The notes beneath the pieces were generated by a model. The model ran no database searches and had not been told where the DNA came from. It saw only the letters and a list, made by a program, of their open reading frames with translations. Of a DNA stretch of 26,723 nucleotides, positions 10,134 to 26,723 are shown one piece after another. Source of the DNA: a virus; the IMG/VR virus record IMGVR_UViG_3300009001_000076, positions 1 to 26,723 of that record. One strand, written 5' to 3'. Numbering within the stretch: position 1 is the first letter of the stretch; each line of letters starts with the position of its first letter. A program made the translations under genes and the position numbers.

Positions 10134-11729
10134 TTAAGGAAGTTGTCTTTGTTGTCGTAAACGATCAAAACCTTTTATTCGTTCTAATTCACGCTGTTGC
10201 TGTTGTTCACCGTCTTCAAAGTCATATGTATAATCTTCTATAAGTTCTAGAGGCTTGCCTACACCTTCTATGTAGTAGTCCTGTTCTGCTAGTTTGCCTC
10301 TTGGTGCGGCATCGCACTTATCATCCTCGCAGTTAATAAGACTTACATCATATCTTATACGGTTAAGGTGATAAGCAGCGTCAGCATAGTCACGATATCC
10401 TCCTGGATCATCCTTTGGTGACCATTTGTCAACGCCGCCGTATATGAGATCACCATACATTTCACCACAAGTAAGTCTAGAGTTGTGATGTCCTCTTTCA
10501 CCAGAGTCATATGACATTATATCTGGAAAACTTCTACCACACAGCGATTCCCACCCATGACCAAACTCGCTCCATATGTATCCGCTATTAGCATAGGCTC
10601 TATTCTCAGGACCATGTGCTAATCCTACTGAGTGTCCTATTTCATGTAAGTCTGTATATGCGCCGCATCTAGATCTGCTGACCGGAGTTCTGTTAGTGTT
10701 TTCTGGAAAATAGGTATTAACATATGCGCAACCACATGTATCTGGGCATACAGATCCTACACCTATACCAACGTCAGCACTAGTTTCATTTTGAATAATA
10801 CTTTTAAGACCTCCATTACCATGATAATGCATACGACCTACGTTACCTTCCTTGAGTACATAACGTATGAATATGCCTGATCTTTCATATGCTTCGTTAT
10901 AGGTATTGACTGTTTTTTGAACTTTGTTCCATTCAGGTGATCCTTTCTCAAAAAGTTCAGTAATATGAGATTGATGATAGTTTTGATCAGAAGAATCTTC
11001 TCTGTCATAAATGAAGTATGCTAGTTCCCACTCTACTATTTGATCATCATCCTCCCCGTAGTAAATATATCCTTGTGTAGGGCCGCTGTAAGCGTAACCT
11101 TGACAGTCAGGTGCATAACCAGTGCCGTCTTTGCCACATCTGGGTTCCTCTACAATGTTAAACAGTATCTGTTCACGACCTAAGGTAAGAATACCTTCGC
11201 CTGTTTGACCAGTACCGTAAATAAGTATGTTGTTGCCATCGCGTTCTATGTGTCCAAGTGTAGTAGAAGCATGTTCCATGCCCCAAGGCTCTTCACGTCC
11301 TAAAAAATCTGTGTAGATTACATTGATCACAGCAGGTTTAAATCTATCACCCTCTGCTTTCTCTAACTCTAACACAAGTGTTGGCGGCTCCCAGCCACAC
11401 TCTACAGATTGATTGTCCTTTTCTGAATAAGTGCCGCCGTTGCCGTCAGCATACTGGAACCATTTTACACCTGGATAGTTTTTTGAACATCCTTCACGTA
11501 ACAGTGTACCTGCTTCTGGAACAGGAGGTGTGTACCCGCACTGTTTTGAACTGCCAGTCACACTTGTTATAACGCCGCCATTTCCGTCAGCAATTTTTTC
11601 AATTAGAGTTGTGCCATCGCAAGACCATTTAATAACTGTGCCTTGTTCTGGATGTGTTGGCGGCTCAAGGCCACAATAAGTTGATATAAATCCGTAAAGG
11701 AAAAGGGTGTTACATAGATTGGTAAACAT
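10134..11729 (-). CDS. metzincin zinc metalloprotease with Cys-rich repeats
   Basis: A 531-residue protein. The zinc site H362-E-x-x-H366-x-x-G369-x-x-H372 (HEIGHSVGLAH) and a Met-turn candidate M405 (DIMSY) define a metzincin endopeptidase. The N-terminal 115 residues hold two copies of a CG-x-x-PP...C...ADGNGG unit (from about C19 and C64) and a third partial start (C111), a repeat style seen in marine phage virion proteins. Additional Cys (198, 209, 328, 332, 334, 355, 397) could form disulphides. The extreme N-terminus is weakly hydrophobic but is not a clear signal peptide. It is probably a virion or secreted protease acting on host surface protein. AAGGAG precedes the ATG inside a hairpin. 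Confidence 0.88.
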   Translation of the reverse strand: MFTNLCNTLFLYGFISTYCGLEPPTHPEQGTVIKWSCDGTTLIEKIADGNGGVITSVTGSSKQCGYTPPVPEAGTLLREGCSKNYPGVKWFQYADGNGGTYSEKDNQSVECGWEPPTLVLELEKAEGDRFKPAVINVIYTDFLGREEPWGMEHASTTLGHIERDGNNILIYGTGQTGEGILTLGREQILFNIVEEPRCGKDGTGYAPDCQGYAYSGPTQGYIYYGEDDDQIVEWELAYFIYDREDSSDQNYHQSHITELFEKGSPEWNKVQKTVNTYNEAYERSGIFIRYVLKEGNVGRMHYHGNGGLKSIIQNETSADVGIGVGSVCPDTCGCAYVNTYFPENTNRTPVSRSRCGAYTDLHEIGHSVGLAHGPENRAYANSGYIWSEFGHGWESLCGRSFPDIMSYDSGERGHHNSRLTCGEMYGDLIYGGVDKWSPKDDPGGYRDYADAAYHLNRIRYDVSLINCEDDKCDAAPRGKLAEQDYYIEGVGKPLELIEDYTYDFEDGEQQQQRELERIKGFDRLRQQRQLP

Positions 11730-11797: not shown

Positions 11798-12464
11798 TTT
11801 TTATATAATTGTATACAATATCTGCTAACTTCTTATGTCCTGTTTGATTCATATGAAGATGATCTTTAGGTAAATGATTTTGAAATGCATCTGGAATAGA
11901 AATAAATTTTTGTTTATAGTAATCTATAAAATCTTCCTCATTAGTTACAGGTCCATAACCACCTGCTTTTACAAAGTATAAATTATCAAACCCTTTGTCT
12001 TTCATAAAACCCTGAAACATATTGTGCATCATTGTAAAATTTTCTAATTCAAAATCTTCATTTATAAATCTTGTATAATTTTTAAAGAATTTTTTTTCCG
12101 CACTTGTATAATCATTAAATGTATGTGCATCCATTTTAAATTTAATGATTGCACCGTCGTCATTATATTTTTCTACAAGGTAAGTTTTTTTAGATCCGTA
12201 TAAAGGACGAGATTTTTTTTGATACGGTGACCAAAATTCGTTTCTAATAGTTTCAGTATACTGAACAATTACAGTATCATTATTACAAATTATATTATTA
12301 TTAATAAGACCAAAAACTTTTCTCCACATACGCCAATTACTGCCACAACCAGATGCTTCGTGAATGTATTCATGTTCTAATTTTTCTGAAAGAATTTCTC
12401 CCCATGCCTTATCAACGTGTGTATAATCACTTACAGAACATCCAAGTACAACAAGTTTAGGCAT
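11793..12464 (-). CDS. SGNH/GDSL-type hydrolase-like protein
   Basis: A 223-residue protein starting MPKLVVLGCSVSDYTHVDKA. GCSVS fits block I (nucleophile Ser), an N-bearing segment SGCGSNWRM follows, and the end DHLHMNQTGHKKLAD fits the block V Asp-x-x-His. These enzymes are esterases or acetyl-transfer enzymes on lipids or glycans. The frame stays open up to 12611, but that part only shadows the nuclease gene, and GSDSL-like proteins begin just before block I, so the ATG at 12464 is chosen. It overlaps the nuclease stop by 8 bases. The substrate is unknown; a glycan O-deacylase is one option. Confidence 0.78.
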   Translation of the reverse strand: MPKLVVLGCSVSDYTHVDKAWGEILSEKLEHEYIHEASGCGSNWRMWRKVFGLINNNIICNNDTVIVQYTETIRNEFWSPYQKKSRPLYGSKKTYLVEKYNDDGAIIKFKMDAHTFNDYTSAEKKFFKNYTRFINEDFELENFTMMHNMFQGFMKDKGFDNLYFVKAGGYGPVTNEEDFIDYYKQKFISIPDAFQNHLPKDHLHMNQTGHKKLADIVYNYIKS

Positions 12465-13137
12465 GATTTTCGTAGTATTGTTCACAGCGTTTCCACCACT
12501 CTTGGGCCCAGTCGTCGAATTCGTCTGGCCAAATATCAAACTGTTGATATTCGCCTGCACGACTGCACATAAACACATGTCCTTCACGTATATCAGTACC
12601 GTGTACTTCATTATGTGCTAGTGCATAAGCCGTCAACTGCAAGAAGTAATCGTATACCCATTCTAGTTTTTTAGGTTTGTTAGTTTGTTTGAAGTCCATA
12701 ATACAAGGTTGGCCTTTGTATTGTCCTACAAGGTCAGTTGTGCCTGCGTAGATACCAGGAACATATAAAGGCACTTCACTGCCCCATATTTCATCAACAT
12801 CTACCATTGCTTGCTCTTTGATTTGGGTTGCCATCATGTGTGCTTGTTGAGCATAAGGATTGCTGCCCGGGTCTGGCCACTCACCTGTATCTATATAATC
12901 TTCTAGATACTTGTGCATTCTAGTACCTACACCTGCGGCTTCAGTTACAATCTCTTGTGCTTTCTTCTCGCCTACACGTTTCTTCCAAGCAATAAGATGT
13001 GTTTTGTCTTTGGTTGCATCTAGAATAGTAGTAACACTTGCAACAGGGGGAGAACCGGGGGCCGCATATCTGCGTTTTCCATCTACTTCGACCCGCTTTA
13101 ATTTTTCGTAGATGTACTTTTCTGTTATAAGACTCAT
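12457..13137 (-). CDS. RecB/Cas4-like PD-(D/E)XK nuclease
   Basis: A 226-residue exonuclease-like protein. Motif order is GTRMHKYLED (H75), E121 (SEVPLY), D135 (YAGTTDLVG), D148-F-K150 (IMDFKQT) and QLTAYA (Q167), the classic arrangement of RecB-family nucleases. A role in phage recombination, repair or host DNA processing is likely. There is no Shine-Dalgarno. A good sigma70 promoter (TTGACT-17-TATAAT) ends six bases before the ATG, so the mRNA may be leaderless and early. The SGNH gene overlaps its 3' end. Confidence 0.88.
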   Translation of the reverse strand: MSLITEKYIYEKLKRVEVDGKRRYAAPGSPPVASVTTILDATKDKTHLIAWKKRVGEKKAQEIVTEAAGVGTRMHKYLEDYIDTGEWPDPGSNPYAQQAHMMATQIKEQAMVDVDEIWGSEVPLYVPGIYAGTTDLVGQYKGQPCIMDFKQTNKPKKLEWVYDYFLQLTAYALAHNEVHGTDIREGHVFMCSRAGEYQQFDIWPDEFDDWAQEWWKRCEQYYENHA

Positions 13138-13143
13138 GTATTA

Positions 13144-13172
13144 ATTATACTATCAAAGGTCTTTTAAGTCAA
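13144..13172 (-). promoter_or_regulatory. sigma70 promoter for nuclease gene, leaderless geometry
   Basis: TTGACT (13172-13167), a 17-base spacer and TATAAT (13149-13144). +1 is expected about seven bases after the -10, which is the A of the ATG at 13137. The promoter overlaps the end of the upstream coding frame. Confidence 0.65.
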
Positions 13173-13395
13173 CCGCATTTTTTGCCATTTTGCCTACAGT
13201 GTCGCTAGGACGTCCTGGGTTTCCTGGCAATTTATCTAAGTCGTCTGCTTCGCTTGATTTGAATTCAATTTTGTTTTGATCAAAATTTGTAACTAGATCT
13301 TGTAGTCTTGAATCAGCATCGTATGCTGCTTTGAATGTTTCGTAATCAAAGTTGCCACGACCTTGATTCTGCATAAATTTATCTAGTTTTTTCAT
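13153..13395 (-). CDS. C-terminal extension frame of the putative scaffold (or separate 80-aa gene)
   Basis: From its first ATG the frame gives 80 residues starting MKKLDKFMQNQGRGNFDYET and ending NAVDLKDL. That ATG has no Shine-Dalgarno. The same frame is open without a stop from 13497, across the end of the 241-aa gene, and reads KKKVIEGVDSEFIYTTLRQQ before reaching the ATG. A -1 shift at the A9G run (13482-13473) would therefore join it to the upstream gene, giving a product of about 350 residues. I favour a fusion over independent translation. A one-base homopolymer error in the assembly would look identical. Confidence 0.6.
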   Translation of the reverse strand: MKKLDKFMQNQGRGNFDYETFKAAYDADSRLQDLVTNFDQNKIEFKSSEADDLDKLPGNPGRPSDTVGKMAKNAVDLKDL

Positions 13396-13400
13396 AGATA

Positions 13401-13421
13401 AAGCGGCAATACCTGCCGCTT
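13401..13421. other. strong GC-rich hairpin inside the extension frame
   Basis: AAGCGGCA/TGCCGCTT, 8 bp perfect, 5-base loop. A T-run follows on the plus strand (13420-13424), but only TTTATCT on the minus strand. It could be a weak terminator, an attenuator lowering read-through to the nuclease gene, or part of the frameshift-stimulating structure. Confidence 0.45.
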
Positions 13422-13439
13422 TTTGTTGGCGTAAAGTCG

Positions 13440-13482
13440 TGTAGATAAACTCGCTATCTACACCTTCAATTACTTTTTTTTT
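13440..13482 (-). promoter_or_regulatory. candidate -1 ribosomal frameshift signal
   Basis: The in-frame heptamer A AAA AAG (13479-13473) lies within a run of nine A and is the same slippery sequence as in bacterial dnaX. The 0-frame stop TAA follows at once. Ten bases further, TGTAGATA (13462-13455) pairs perfectly with TATCTACA (13447-13440) around a 7-base loop, a spacing close to that of stimulatory hairpins. Confidence 0.5.
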
Positions 13483-14195
13483 GGACGTTCTACGCTTTCA
13501 CGGGTTTCACGACCCATTTCTTCATCGCCGCCTGCTGCTGCATCGCTAGCTTCAAAGTCATCTTCTGCGTCCATTTCCATGTCATCCATATCATCTGTTG
13601 GTTCCATGTCCATGTCATCGTCGCCCATAGTGTCCATTGGTTCAGCTTCTCCAGTTAGCATACCAACACCTTGTGTTAGTGTGCCGCGTGTAGTTTCCAT
13701 TGCTGCATACATAGCTTCTAGTGCAGGTTTAACTGTAGAGGTAAATGTTTCAGCTTGCTCTGAACCCATTTCGTCACGAATAGCATCTGCTAGTTCTAGC
13801 ATAGATTCTGTTTGCATTTCTGCTGTATCTTCCATCCATCCAGTAACTCTATCAACCATGTCCTTTGCAGCCATTACTAATTCTGCTTTATCTTCTTCGC
13901 CTTCGTTTACTCTTTCTACTGCTTCGTCAATTGCATCAATAATATGATCATCTCTTTCTGCAATAGCTGCGTTTAATACATCTAAGAAAAGTTTATTCTT
14001 CTGATATTCAGCAGTTTGCACACTATCAAAACTTTCAGTAGTTTCAACGTTAAAAACTCTTGTTCTAATCTTGTTACGAGCATCCATTAGCTGCTCTGTA
14101 GTAAATGAATCGATATCAATCTTAGAACCAAACTTTTGTGCAAGACTTTCGTTTAGCTTCTTAGCAGATACATTTGTAAATTCTTTTAGGTTCAT
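13470..14195 (-). CDS. putative prohead core/scaffold protein
   Basis: A 241-residue acidic, helical protein starting MNLKEFTNVSAKKLNESLAQ. Residues 27-60 (SFTTEQLMDARNKIRTRVFN) and LDVLNAAIAERDDHIIDAID look like the T4-like marine phage prohead-core family as I recall it. From about 180 it turns into a Met/Asp/Glu-rich tail (MGDDDMDMEPTDDMDD), which is typical of scaffold or internal core proteins. An LNE|S site at residues 15-17 resembles a prohead-protease cut. A late promoter GATAAATA lies 28 bases upstream, and there is a GGATGAG-type Shine-Dalgarno. Its end carries the A AAA AAG slip site. Confidence 0.7.
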   Translation of the reverse strand: MNLKEFTNVSAKKLNESLAQKFGSKIDIDSFTTEQLMDARNKIRTRVFNVETTESFDSVQTAEYQKNKLFLDVLNAAIAERDDHIIDAIDEAVERVNEGEEDKAELVMAAKDMVDRVTGWMEDTAEMQTESMLELADAIRDEMGSEQAETFTSTVKPALEAMYAAMETTRGTLTQGVGMLTGEAEPMDTMGDDDMDMEPTDDMDDMEMDAEDDFEASDAAAGGDEEMGRETRESVERPKKK

Positions 14196-14231: not shown

Positions 14232-14651
14232 TTAACCAAAGATATATGACTCTAATTGACGTTTGATTTGTTTGGTATAATTATGTGCAATATCTAATCT
14301 TATTTCACGTACTTCTCTATAGCTGTTATCTTTGCTGTTTATCATAGAATTTTTATAAAATAGAGAATCATTATAATGTTTTAGTAAATCAGCATCTAGT
14401 TGTAGAATTCGGTTTGTTGATTTACCTTTGATTAGTGCTTTAGTTAATGCTATTGCGGTGTATTTAAAGTTAACTGAGAAAAGTCTACGATTTTCGGAAA
14501 TATCAAAGATATTATATTCCCCTTTTTTATTTTTTCGAATAACATAATTTTTTATTCTAATAGAATTTTGAGAAACATAAGGAATATCTAGATCTCTGAT
14601 GCCATTTTCAATTACATCTTCTAAATCTTTTGCAATTTTTTTAGATATCAT
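14232..14651 (-). CDS. hypothetical phage protein, basic and helical
   Basis: A 139-residue protein starting MISKKIAKDLEDVIENGIRD. About 25-60 looks like a small beta unit (IRIKNYVIRKNKKGEYNIFD), followed by helices rich in Lys, Asn and Tyr. No family is recognised. It overlaps the 67-aa gene upstream by 11 bases and ends the 15720-14232 run of five overlapping genes, so it is expressed with likely packaged or core proteins. Confidence 0.65.
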   Translation of the reverse strand: MISKKIAKDLEDVIENGIRDLDIPYVSQNSIRIKNYVIRKNKKGEYNIFDISENRRLFSVNFKYTAIALTKALIKGKSTNRILQLDADLLKHYNDSLFYKNSMINSKDNSYREVREIRLDIAHNYTKQIKRQLESYIFG

Positions 14652-14844
14652 TTTTCATTACCATAACTTGGTTGTTGTACAGTATTTTACTTACCACACT
14701 TTTACGAATCAAGTTATCAATAATGATTTGTTCTCTCTCTTGGAATGTAGACAAAGGAACAAGCCCATTTAAGGTTTCCAAGAGAGATTTTTCCTCGTTC
14801 GTTGTGTATATAGAAAAATCTGTTATGAGCTCATTTAATTTCAT
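14641..14844 (-). CDS. small phage protein with capsid-leader-like N-terminus
   Basis: A 67-residue protein starting MKLNELITDFSIYTTNEEKS. The MKLNE start matches the M-[KR]-[LIF]-x-E leader shared by neighbouring genes. The rest looks like a small helical winged-helix-like unit (FQEREQIIIDNLIRKSVVSK), but this is weak. The ATG overlaps the stop of the 92-aa gene (ATGA). Confidence 0.6.
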   Translation of the reverse strand: MKLNELITDFSIYTTNEEKSLLETLNGLVPLSTFQEREQIIIDNLIRKSVVSKILYNNQVMVMKNDI

Positions 14845-15119
14845 TTAATACTAGCCAATTGTTGTTGTAACTGTTTTAACTGCATTTGAGTTGATTTAAT
14901 TTGATCTTGTATTTGTTTCTTTTGTTCTTGTTTTGCTTTTTGCGCTTCAGGAGAATTAGCATCAGGTTGACCCATAGGTTCGCCTACACCAGCATTTTGA
15001 TTATTCATCTTTTTTATTTGCTGCTGCATTTTTTGTCCAGATGCAGATAAAGGCGGCAAACTTGAAACGCCGCCTGCTTTTTCTGGTGGTGGACCGCCTA
15101 CTACTTCAGATAACTTCAT
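14841..15119 (-). CDS. small Gln-rich coiled-coil protein with capsid-leader-like N-terminus
   Basis: A 92-residue protein starting MKLSEVVGGPPPEKAGGVSS. A Pro/Gly/Ser-rich first third is followed by a Gln/Lys-rich coiled coil in the last 35 residues (QDQIKSTQMQLKQLQQQLAS). It belongs to the MK(L/I)xE leader group. It overlaps both neighbours by ATGA-type junctions. The function is unknown; an internal head or core role is inferred only from its neighbours. Confidence 0.65.
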   Translation of the reverse strand: MKLSEVVGGPPPEKAGGVSSLPPLSASGQKMQQQIKKMNNQNAGVGEPMGQPDANSPEAQKAKQEQKKQIQDQIKSTQMQLKQLQQQLASIK

Positions 15120-15427
15120 CTTCTAGCTCCTCTGCGCTTATGAGGTTTAATTCTTCTGCGACCTACATTTAATCTTTTGAGTTTTTGGCTTGCAGGATTA
15201 GTTCTTTTAGTTCTACTTCTTTTAATATCTAATGTTTTACCTTTAGATCGTCTAGTTTTTTTAAGAGTTACACTTGCTTTAACATTTTTTGGTGCATTAC
15301 AAGTAGCTGCTTTTGCAACAACTCTACCTTTTCTTGGTCCGCTTGTACAACGATACTTTCTTACAGTTTTGTTACCGCTTTTACCAAATACAGTTGTGAT
15401 ACCTTCGACAATTTCTTCAACAAGCAT
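15116..15427 (-). CDS. very basic protein, paralogue of the next gene (B copy)
   Basis: A 103-residue protein starting MLVEEIVEGITTVFGKSGNK. After an acidic leader with an IVE|G site, the rest is strongly basic and ends KPHKRRGARR. It shares VRKYRC(T/S)SGPRK, V-x-K, a second Cys about 18 residues later, LK(K/R)T, and (T)KR-x-NPAS with the gene at 15427-15720. The two Cys could bind zinc in pairs. It is likely a nucleic-acid-binding, possibly DNA-condensing, virion protein. A Shine-Dalgarno AAGGAG and a one-base overlap (TAATG) with the upstream paralogue are seen. Confidence 0.75.
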   Translation of the reverse strand: MLVEEIVEGITTVFGKSGNKTVRKYRCTSGPRKGRVVAKAATCNAPKNVKASVTLKKTRRSKGKTLDIKRSRTKRTNPASQKLKRLNVGRRRIKPHKRRGARR

Positions 15428-15720
15428 TAACGTCTCCTTGAAGCTTTGTTCATTGATTGTACTCTACGACTAGCAGGGTTTATTCTTTTTGTTCTACGTG
15501 CTTTTCTTGCCATTCTTTTACCTAGTCTTGCTTTTGTTCTTTTGAGAGTTGCACGTTTTTTTGGATCAGGTGCAGCAAAACAAGCAGAAATCTTTGATAC
15601 AATTCTATTTTTTCTAGGACCACTAGAACAACGATACTTGCGCACTACCTTCTTACCAGAACGTGCCCAAGTCTGCGCTTCTTCTAAATTTTCGTCAATA
15701 AAAAACTCACGTAATAACAT
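15427..15720 (-). CDS. very basic protein, paralogue of the previous gene (A copy), predicted leaderless
   Basis: A 97-residue protein starting MLLREFFIDENLEEAQTWAR. An acidic leader with an LEE|A site is followed by KYRCSSGPRK, a second Cys (ISACFAAP) and a long Lys/Arg-rich tail (TKRINPASRRVQ) ending SRRR. No Shine-Dalgarno is present. GATAAATA at 15726-15733 lies exactly five bases before the ATG, so a T4-type +1 would be the A of the start codon. This looks like a tandem duplication with the next gene. The acidic leader joined to a protamine-like body suits a protein processed in the prohead. Confidence 0.75.
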   Translation of the reverse strand: MLLREFFIDENLEEAQTWARSGKKVVRKYRCSSGPRKNRIVSKISACFAAPDPKKRATLKRTKARLGKRMARKARRTKRINPASRRVQSMNKASRRR

Positions 15721-20499: not shown

Positions 20500-20523
20500 T
20501 TACAAACATTGGAGGGTAAAACA

Positions 20524-21306
20524 TTGTCTATAATAAAATTAAGTTTTCCAGAGCGTTCATTATTATTTGCCAAACTGTCTGAAATTTCATATAATGATAA
20601 CATCAAGGAAGTAAAAAAGCAAGTAAAAGAATTAGGGTTTACAGAAGTAGAATTTTATAACAAAGAAGGAGCACAAGCATATCGTTTTGCAAGCAAAGAT
20701 GATATGGTTATTGCATGTCGCGGCACACAACCAACACAATGGAATGATATTAGTGCAGATCTAAAAGCAGTTCCAGTTGTAGCAGAGACCATAAGTCGTG
20801 TGCATCAAGGATTTAAAGCAGAAGTAGACGAGTTATGGCCAATGGTAATGGCAGACCTTATGTCAAAACAACCTAAACAAAAACTATGGTTCTGTGGACA
20901 TTCACTAGGTGCTGCAATGGCAACTATAATGGCAAGCCGTTGTTTGTACAACACCAAAGTTCCTGATCCTGAAGAATTATACACATACGGTTCTCCAAGA
21001 GTAGGCTGGAAGGGTTATGTAGTACATCTTGGAGTAAAGCATCATCGTTGGGTAAACAATAATGACATTGTTACCACAGTGCCTCCTAGGTTAATGGGAT
21101 ACAGACACCACGGAACAGAACACTATCTAAACGCATATGGTAATGTAAGAAAACTTACTGCTATGCAAAGGTTCAAAGATCGTATGCGTGGAATGTGGAT
21201 GGGTATTAAACGTGGCGGTATTGATAACTTCTCAGATCACTCAATGACCAACTACATAAATTATTTAGAATTTTACGCTAAAGGCAAAGAAAACTCACAG
21301 CACTAA
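20524..21306 (+). CDS. class 3 lipase (alpha/beta hydrolase)
   Basis: A 260-residue protein starting MSIIKLSFPERSLLFAKLSE. The nucleophile elbow G-H-S127-L-G lies in FCGHSLGAAMATIMA. The DIV segment (D181 in NNNDIVTTVPP) and H239 (FSDHSMTNY) complete a Ser-Asp-His triad, and the early VIACRGTQP fits the oxyanion region of class 3 lipases. It would cleave a lipid or ester. GGAGGG lies inside an upstream open stretch, so the TTG at 20524 is the start. It is an isolated plus-strand gene; its end meets the minus-strand UDP-glucose-dehydrogenase gene tail to tail. A lysis or membrane role is inferred. Confidence 0.88.
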   Translation: MSIIKLSFPERSLLFAKLSEISYNDNIKEVKKQVKELGFTEVEFYNKEGAQAYRFASKDDMVIACRGTQPTQWNDISADLKAVPVVAETISRVHQGFKAEVDELWPMVMADLMSKQPKQKLWFCGHSLGAAMATIMASRCLYNTKVPDPEELYTYGSPRVGWKGYVVHLGVKHHRWVNNNDIVTTVPPRLMGYRHHGTEHYLNAYGNVRKLTAMQRFKDRMRGMWMGIKRGGIDNFSDHSMTNYINYLEFYAKGKENSQH

Positions 21307-25838: not shown

Positions 25839-26083
25839 TATTCATATCCTCTCGGGTCTTTAACTCTAATATCTGCAGGGTGCTTAGGCTTGTTTGGGCC
25901 ACCGCCTGCAAGAGTTGTAATTGCGTCTACATCTGTAACTATTTCGTTTGGAGAATTTGCAAGAGGACCACGACTAGGATTATCAATCATATCTTTTACC
26001 ATATGCTTGCCGTCTTCTGCATCTAACTCTTCTTGAGCATCAATAATATCAATTAATGCTCTTAATATTTCTTGTATTCGCAT
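25838..26083 (-). CDS. small protein with capsid-leader-like N-terminus
   Basis: An 81-residue protein starting MRIQEILRALIDIIDAQEEL. It has an IQE site at residues 3-5 and belongs to the M-[KR]-[IL]-x-E leader group. After an acidic helix comes a Pro/Asn/Gly-rich second half (GGGPNKPKHPADIRVKDPRG). Unknown. It has a Shine-Dalgarno AGGAG and a late promoter CATAAATA and starts a three-gene minus-strand unit, diverging from hemA. Confidence 0.7.
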   Translation of the reverse strand: MRIQEILRALIDIIDAQEELDAEDGKHMVKDMIDNPSRGPLANSPNEIVTDVDAITTLAGGGPNKPKHPADIRVKDPRGYE

Positions 26084-26099
26084 TGCGTACTCCTATAAT
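26072..26099 (+). promoter_or_regulatory. possible sigma70 promoter for hemA
   Basis: TTGTAT (26072-26077), a 16-base spacer and a perfect TATAAT (26094-26099) on the plus strand. It lies within the start of the divergent gene. Predicted +1 is about 15-20 bases before the hemA ATG. Confidence 0.5.
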
Positions 26100-26100
26100 A

Positions 26101-26108
26101 TATTTATG
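26101..26108 (-). promoter_or_regulatory. late promoter CATAAATA for the 26083-24215 unit
   Basis: A good late-consensus match on the minus strand 17 bases before the ATG. It overlaps the presumed hemA transcription start, so late transcription could oppose early hemA expression. Confidence 0.6.
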
Positions 26109-26121
26109 CATAAGTAGATGT

Positions 26122-26723
26122 ATGATCAACAAAAAACCCTTTCAAGACAAACTAGATCAGCTGAAACAGGAAGGCAAGTACCGTGTATTCAACGATATAC
26201 TTCGTGAACGCGGAAAATTTCCTAAGGCTATTTGGTATGGCAAATACAATATTAAAGAAATTGTAAATTGGTGTAGCAACGATTATCTCGGAATGGGTCA
26301 AAATAAAGTTGTCATAGATGCAATGCATACTGCATTGAATCAAACAGGTGCTGGTAGTGGTGGCACTCGCAATATTGGGGGTACATCACACTATCACGTA
26401 GCACTAGAACACGAACTTGCCACTTTGCATAGCAAAGAACAGGCTCTACTGTATTCTAGTGCATATGTCGCAAATGAATGGACATTGGTTGCTCTAAAGC
26501 AAATCGTTACCGACATTGTGTATATCAGTGATTCAATGAATCACGCTTCTATGATCCAGGGGATAAGACACAGTGGTGCTGACAAGGTCATTTTTAAGCA
26601 CAACGATATGGAGGATCTAGAATCTAAACTCAGTAGTTGTTCAGGCACGCCTTGTATTGTGTTTGAATCCGTATATAGTATGGATGGGGATATTGGGAAG
26701 ATTCGTGAAATTTGCGACCTTGC
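26122..26723 (+). CDS. hemA: 5-aminolevulinate synthase, 5' part (cut by window end)
   Basis: About 200 residues are visible, starting MINKKPFQDKLDQLKQEGKY. The enzyme joins glycine and succinyl-CoA to make 5-aminolevulinate, the first step of the Shemin tetrapyrrole route. NWCSNDYLGMGQNKVV, GAGSGGTRNIGGTSHYH, LHSKEQALLYSSAYVANEWT, DSMNHASMIQGIRHSG and VFESVYSMDGDIGKI follow the alphaproteobacterial ALAS pattern closely; 'NHASMI' and 'SMDGD' separate it from KBL/BioF relatives. The PLP lysine lies beyond the window, so completeness cannot be judged. The Shine-Dalgarno is weak, and a sigma70-like promoter lies upstream. It would be an auxiliary metabolic gene. Confidence 0.93.
   Translation, partial: MINKKPFQDKLDQLKQEGKYRVFNDILRERGKFPKAIWYGKYNIKEIVNWCSNDYLGMGQNKVVIDAMHTALNQTGAGSGGTRNIGGTSHYHVALEHELATLHSKEQALLYSSAYVANEWTLVALKQIVTDIVYISDSMNHASMIQGIRHSGADKVIFKHNDMEDLESKLSSCSGTPCIVFESVYSMDGDIGKIREICDL

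Follow-up and report, generated by a model that had tools for sequence, protein, structure and literature searches.

Does a gene whose reading frame ends in a run of nine adenines make a single protein, or does a -1 frameshift at that run add a second, longer one? The question is raised by IMG/VR record IMGVR_UViG_3300009001_000076, whose 26,723 bases we call the window (the whole stretch of DNA analysed); the gene under study lies on its minus strand. A sequence-only reading had pointed out that a 241-aa frame ends in CCA AAA AAA AAG TAA, that no stop interrupts the -1 frame between 13497 and an 80-aa frame that it takes in, and that the ATG of this 80-aa frame lacks a Shine-Dalgarno sequence. 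All of this proved correct, the end of the 241-aa frame being confirmed at the level of single bases. We refer to the 0-frame product as N and to the -1 extension as C; the features of the junction are as follows.

13470..14195, minus strand: 0-frame ORF, N protein of 241 aa, ending in KKK and then TAA
13473..13482, minus strand: slip site, A9 at 13482-13474 plus G at 13473, with the heptamer A AAA AAG at 13479-13473
13470..13472, minus strand: 0-frame stop codon TAA, immediately 3' of the heptamer, as read in the window
13153..13473, minus strand: -1 frame extension, C domain, 106 aa plus stop, by translation
13153..13395, minus strand: 80-aa ORF of the mechanically made list, an internal part of the -1 extension

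The heptamer at the end of the frame is, as had been noted, that of dnaX. A slip on it would lead from the lysines into the extension (...KKK-VIEGVDSEF...) and yield a fusion of 241 + 106 = 347 aa, so that the two products with a common N-terminus, predicted earlier at 241 and about 350 aa, have computed lengths of 241 and 347 aa. The ATG of the 80-aa ORF (13395) is situated 26 codons inside the -1 frame and is not conserved in relatives. Gene callers cut the protein short and assign the C domain a false start.

Conservation of the junction

A first scan with the -1 extension recovered 25 relatives, most of them matched from the first post-slip residue, and the break is kept in all those with a readable upstream side. 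Wider scans, made with alignments of N and of C, gave 114 distinct loci carrying both parts. In 105 of these C is in the -1 frame relative to N, while a single ORF was found in none; in one further locus (L195) the best match to C lies further along, yet the same junction is present with C directly in -1, and in the remaining eight C is a separate gene. An in-frame fusion of N and C was considered as an explanation and rejected, there being no case of it among the 114 distinct loci.

Dereplication of the frameshift loci at 90% identity left 91. An in-phase A AAA AAN is found at the junction in every one of them (A AAA AAG in 85, A AAA AAA in five and A AAA AAC in one) and C is always in -1, whereas the background frequency of in-phase A AAA AAN is 27 per 23,566 other codons of the family. 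Conservation of the heptamer at the junction is thus far above chance. The 0-frame stop in relatives may be TAA, TAG or TGA, and lies 0, 3, 6 or 12 nt past the heptamer; since its identity and distance vary while the heptamer is constant, it is the heptamer and not the stop that is the conserved feature. Thirty more loci, not all of them new to the set, were classed as frameshifts by a script on the basis of a second subtype of C; 29 distinct loci of this subtype, in partial overlap with the others, retain a slip site of A9 or A10. One of the 30, L385, is better regarded as having a separate C, because this C has its own Shine-Dalgarno sequence, ATG and targeting-like start.

Most of the 91 loci have a run of nine adenines (78 loci), with A8 in six and A10 in three, so that A8-A10 together account for 87. 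There were about six origins of A8 and three of A10, none of which cost the -1 relation. A clade of four rows (L190, L192, L194 and L198, support 99) has a run of only six adenines, which forms exactly A AAA AAG.

Nine-base homopolymers are error-prone, and a break at such a run might in principle reflect a sequencing or assembly error, or a split gene in decay. Against this, many samples have yielded the identical break, in about 120 distinct contigs that differ in their flanks, in 2-codon insertions and in run lengths from A6 to A10. The presence of the same break in so many different contigs excludes sequencing error, and we give explanations of this kind practically no weight. That homologues keep both heptamer and break, and that none carries one continuous frame, strongly supports the proposal of a programmed -1 frameshift.

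The extension is conserved as protein

The C extension is conserved at the protein level across homologues (50-row alignment), and the other two frames over it are broken by stops. By a simple pooled pair count, which is not tree-based, pN/pS is 0.34 for extension residues 1-26, the part 5' of the first ATG in the window, and 0.21 for residues 27-75. This bears on the possibility that there is no recoding at all and that C is made separately, through termination-reinitiation or from an internal start. The 80-aa ORF does possess an ATG, and in five loci (L377, L380, L386, L389 and L394) a GTG overlaps the 0-frame TGA at the slip site as GTGA. Yet the ATG in the window has no Shine-Dalgarno sequence, first start codons are not conserved among relatives, and before residue 27 the -1 frame contains no ATG, GTG or TTG in 40 of the 91 loci and no ATG in 79. 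Residues 1-26 are moreover under purifying selection as protein, and conservation of the heptamer is not expected from reinitiation. Selection on residues 1-26, together with the loci that lack start codons, means that a separate start does not explain the data, and we consider production of C by this route very improbable.

The five loci with GTGA are otherwise of the frameshift type (AAAAAAAAAGTGA), and in three of them the GTGA is followed by targeting-like sequence of the sort described below (RINEV in L377, RISEV in L389 and RIAEV in L394). It is possible, judging from these sequences, that they are intermediates which use coupling as well as frameshifting.

RNA structure downstream of the slip site

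Two stem-loops follow the heptamer in the window.

13432..13468, minus strand: stem-loop 1, about 4 nt past the heptamer, including a perfect 8-bp hairpin at 13462-13440
13400..13422, minus strand: stem-loop 2, 9 bp, GC-rich and followed by a short U stretch, by folding

The perfect 8-bp core hairpin (TGTAGATA/TATCTACA) begins 10 nt past the heptamer, exactly as the sequence-only reading had described it, and the second strong hairpin that it placed further on is stem-loop 2. The 75 nt past the heptamer in the window fold with -26.3 kcal/mol (z -4.55 against dinucleotide shuffles). For the family, where each sequence was compared with synonymous codon draws, there is an excess of folding in the first 48 nt, with a mean z of -1.76 in 52 near loci and -1.31 in 39 distant loci. 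The excess is about zero beyond +130, and near loci show a second maximum at +36 to +96. Structure was judged by shuffle test; an even-length single-stem search 0-14 nt past the heptamer missed known stems, that of the window included.

In 28 near sequences 77.6% of the cells of a 15-bp stem are standard pairs, a figure that drops to 30-52% when the stem is slid, and its covariation score exceeds those of all 500 shuffles; in the same 28 sequences, pairs changed on both sides are not above shuffles, so that covariation gives limited support. Some loci (L073, L080, L093, L178 and L180) have no clear stem near the slip site, which counts against ribosomal frameshifting, and no conserved upstream Shine-Dalgarno stimulator could be established. 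On the whole, a stimulatory RNA structure is predicted a few nucleotides downstream of the heptamer both in the window and in the family. Stem-loop 2 has a terminator-like appearance, and in near relatives its excess stability is as strong as that of stem-loop 1.

Ribosome or RNA polymerase

A slip of the ribosome and a slip of the polymerase would lead to the same protein. Of the heptamers that have been compared in E. coli, A_AAA_AAG shifts most readily, and a stretch of nine As or Ts makes bacterial RNA polymerase slip efficiently (PMC5009743). The frame change could therefore arise in transcription, with RNA polymerase adding one A at the A9 run and no slip by the ribosome. The efficiency of nine As or Ts in bacteria (PMC5009743) speaks for such a mechanism, as do the A8-A10 runs in 87 of the 91 loci, which are longer than the heptamer requires, and three loci (L140, L141 and L171) that have lost the preceding A and changed AAG to AAA while keeping A9 (AAA AAA AAA G). 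The clade with six adenines, on the other hand, retains exactly A AAA AAG, and for this reason ribosomal slippage is favoured over slippage by RNA polymerase. In addition, the run hardly varies in phase (85 of 91 loci have A AAA AAG), a regularity for which polymerase slippage has no need, and the excess of RNA structure is located where a ribosomal stimulator is expected. We consequently regard purely transcriptional slippage as unlikely, though it is the more serious of the rivals so far discussed; ribosomal and polymerase slippage may also both contribute. A -1 frameshift with two products, and with the ribosome as the slipping agent, is the reading that these sequences favour, and we assign it a probability of roughly 85%.

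Gene identity and genomic setting

The gene had been labelled a putative prohead core or scaffold gene, and this label is not supported. N matches the 'virion structural protein' family phrog_14154 of PHROGs (E 1.1e-11) and one weak unknown besides; it has no match in Pfam, and hence no scaffold-family similarity is seen in Pfam or PHROGs. Its predicted structure is helical with an acidic disordered tail (AlphaFold2 helices at 85-143 and 145-181, mean pLDDT 66.7). Two related IMG/VR contigs, G007 (330,024 bases) and G008 (357,559 bases), carry genes for gp21 (Peptidase_S77, PF03420) and gp23 (PF07068) at about 110 kb from the N gene. The order in the head cluster of G007 is a portal-like protein of 579 aa, an acidic protein of 335 aa, the protease of 208 aa, a 362-aa protein in the gp22 position and Gp23 of 392 aa, where only the protease and Gp23 are matched to families, the portal-like, gp67-like and gp22-like labels being given by position and size. 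As gp21 and gp23 are distant and the gp22 position is filled by a gene of its own, N is by position not the T4 scaffold. With these genes, G007 and G008 would make the group T4-like jumbo phages; the family is a large one, of mostly marine giant T4-like phages. The gene neighbourhood in G007 is the same as that in the window, and the window probably derives from such a phage.

Searches of isolate phages with N, C and the divergent C gave no match except far homologues of N, namely gp044 of Agrobacterium phage Atu_ph07, which bears the annotation 'virion structural protein', and one protein from Sinorhizobium phage Phosso (E 9.3e-15 and 8.3e-20). In Atu_ph07, 29 virion proteins were identified by mass spectrometry from a cluster comprising CDS 31-76 (PMC6102473), and gp044 falls inside this cluster by position. 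Given this 'virion structural protein' homologue and the capsid-targeting-like N-terminus described below, a virion role for N, associated with the head, is likely.

Immediately downstream of the recoded gene is the following feature.

12457..13137, minus strand: PD-(D/E)XK exonuclease (phrog_298, E 9e-53; PF12705)

A tail assembly chaperone was considered as an identity for the recoded gene and rejected: the next gene is this exonuclease and not a tape-measure gene, and the neighbours scanned had no tail matches. Elsewhere in the window, the 531-aa product of 10134-11729 has a metallopeptidase domain that is reprolysin-like (PF13582, E 4.3e-6), and 20509-21306 encodes a Class 3 lipase (PF01764, E 2.8e-20) on the strand opposite to the structural genes. 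A 5-aminolevulinate synthase-like gene at 26056-26721, which as an auxiliary metabolic gene is unusual in a phage, is cut by the window end; its partial match to TIGR01821 (E 2e-81) is below the whole-protein cut-off because of this truncation.

The C domain resembles a winged helix

C residues 1-73 are predicted to adopt a winged-helix-like fold (AlphaFold2, mean pLDDT 72.7), with VIA-align Z scores of up to 6.6 against winged-helix domains. A fold search of PDB and BFVD gave no match at E <= 0.001 and many winged-helix domains at middling scores; as these matches are only middling, no function is read from the fold. C has no significant match in PHROGs, and its profile found no relative in bacterial and archaeal genomes. 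The winged helix that the model resembles is a widespread fold, and DNA binding inside the head is one guess as to what C might do.

Capsid-targeting-like starts and protease-like motifs

Packaging in T4 needs no more of IPIII than its first 10 residues, fusions to this protein are packaged too, and gp21 cleaves after L/I-x-E (PMC9026906). Sequences of comparable appearance occur at the start of N, in its neighbours and just after the slip.

14148..14195, minus strand: capsid-targeting-like N-terminus of N, MNLKEFTNVSAKKLNE, with L-x-E and then S, conserved in relatives
14641..15720, minus strand: four neighbouring small genes with the N-terminal motif, starting MKLNEL, MKLSEV, MLVEEIVEG and MLLREFFIDE
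13465..13473, minus strand: V-I-E and then G, a putative prohead-protease-like motif formed by the first three post-slip residues

N starts MNLKEF...LNE|S, and E5, L14, N15 and E16 are nearly invariant in a 43-row alignment. Seven further genes in the window start likewise (MKLNEL, MKLSEV, MLVEEI, MLLREF, MKINEV, MRFQEF and MRIQEI). Across all loci, M-x-[ILVFM]-x-E-[FILVM] begins 297 of 1,409 distinct N-termini, which include recurring homologous families and so are not independent, against 0.6% internally; [LIV]-x-E-[AGSN] follows within residues 6-22 in 51% of the motif-bearing proteins, against 14% of the others. By analogy with the T4 internal proteins, the start of N would act as a targeting signal. 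Between 13470 and 26083 there are thus eight genes with an M-x-hydrophobic-x-E-hydrophobic start, the rest of their sequences being mostly unrelated-looking, and these eight probably make up a catalogue of the head-internal proteins of these phages.

The motif after the slip is likewise a property of the family. In the fusion, [VILM]-x-E occurs within the first nine post-slip residues at all 91 loci, against a background of 18.6%, and one of A, G, N and S usually comes next, as in KKK-VTE|ADEPSKLVQVL. The P3 position is mostly V, whereas T4 gp21 prefers L or I, and this counts against a cleavage step at this site.

Clades with C as a separate gene

C is a separate gene in 29 rows of the tree, as against 120 frameshift rows. 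The 29 rows form three clades (support 92, 99 and 99), and the tree needs three changes between the two arrangements, of which well-supported branches force at least two. At these loci there is no slip site at the end of the N ORF (an example is ...CTGTCAAGCAGAAAG TAA), and A-runs at the junction are no longer than four, the exception being L385, with A6. Separate C has its own ATG, usually preceded by GGAT. All 29 separate C proteins start with M-x-[ILVFM]-x-[ED]-[FILVM] followed by [LIV]-x-E, examples being MRVSDIILE|AEPNQSASKLVQIL, MKIFELYE|ADVPQ... and MLMSDIINE|AGE... As the separate protein has its motif at the start and the fusion has one after the slip, a putative cut would leave, by either route, a protein with nearly the same starting point.

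L385 is apparently transitional, with a residual A AAA AAG beside a Shine-Dalgarno sequence, an ATG and a targeting-like C start (MLVSDILLKE). The outgroups Atu_ph07 and Phosso have separate genes, and rooting with them involves long branches and weak support.

A possible route into the head

These observations suggest a scheme in which a dnaX-type tandem tRNA-Lys slip takes place at A AAA AAG, aided by the stem-loop about 4 nt downstream. Most ribosomes would stop at the end of N (241 aa), and what we infer to be a minority would slip and make N+C (347 aa). The capsid-targeting-like start of N would direct it to the prohead core, and C would be carried in with it; a gp21-type maturation protease would then cut after the LNE of N and after the post-slip [VIL]-x-E, and so free the winged-helix-like C domain inside the head. 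In phages whose C has a targeting-like start of its own, the slip site is absent. We put at about even the chances that C reaches the prohead core on N and is then freed in the head by a gp21-type protease. Gag-Pol is a known delivery device, and an equal chance attaches to the idea that Gag-Pol-like logic operates here, the frameshift attaching cargo at a set ratio and a separate gene with its own targeting-like peptide being an exchangeable route to the same end.

N+C might instead be an assembly factor, or decorate the capsid or tail in the manner of T7 gp10B or lambda gpGT, and never be released by a protease. Frameshifts in phage structural genes are known to yield C-terminally extended capsid or tail proteins (PMC5009743), and the fold matches of C point to no function. 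Against this, C is free-standing in three clades, so a permanent fusion to N is not required; the stand-alone C always has a capsid-targeting-like start and [LIV]-x-E; and the fusion has [VILM]-x-E at 91 of 91 loci. We hold such a role to be a real contender, if somewhat less probable than delivery of a protease-released cargo.

Relation to known systems

The locus resembles E. coli dnaX in its heptamer, in a stem-loop a few nucleotides 3' and in two products with a common N-terminus. It differs in that the shift in dnaX gives the short product and here the long one, and in that the runs here are mainly A9 and no conserved upstream Shine-Dalgarno sequence was established. With lambda G/GT, T3/T7 10A/B, A2, A118 and PSA it has in common a frameshifted C-terminal extension in a late structural region. 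Unlike these, it belongs to another family that is neither a tail chaperone nor gp23, it has an exonuclease next door, and the domain that is added resembles a winged helix, not an Ig fold, and is a separate gene in some clades. T4 IPI-III and Alt likewise have a short targeting-like N-terminal motif followed by hydrophobic-x-E, and are likewise clustered, unrelated small proteins with only the start in common; N is by contrast larger and helical, C is carried by a frameshift fusion, and packaging and cleavage are here putative. If the cargo model holds, there is a likeness to retroviral Gag-Pol in that cargo is fused to an assembly protein and freed by a protease, though there is no homology, the virus is a dsDNA phage and the cargo is a small domain. 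Atu_ph07 (gp044/gp043) and Phosso have an N homologue that is followed by a small gene and set among similar neighbours, but unlike the family they have separate genes without a slip site, and the following protein falls short of the threshold in its match to C.

It had been noted earlier that such recoding is known for tail chaperones and is not known for scaffold proteins. Tail chaperones are indeed one established setting, but -1 frameshifts are known in capsid proteins too (T3/T7, A2 and A118), and the wider list of capsid or tail proteins includes A500 and PSA (PMC5009743). For T4-type internal or capsid-targeted proteins, or internal head proteins of jumbo phages, we found no report of recoding in the open-access literature. 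The present sequences would thus represent a large recoded family that is new to the open-access literature searched; it joins a small number of programmed frameshifts known from phage structural genes, and is neither a tail chaperone nor a major capsid protein.

Phages that have switched naturally between fusion and separate gene make the reasons for viral recoding directly accessible. In this family the likely reason is that the domain is thereby delivered into the head, and recoding, capsid targeting and proteolytic maturation would then be parts of a single system.
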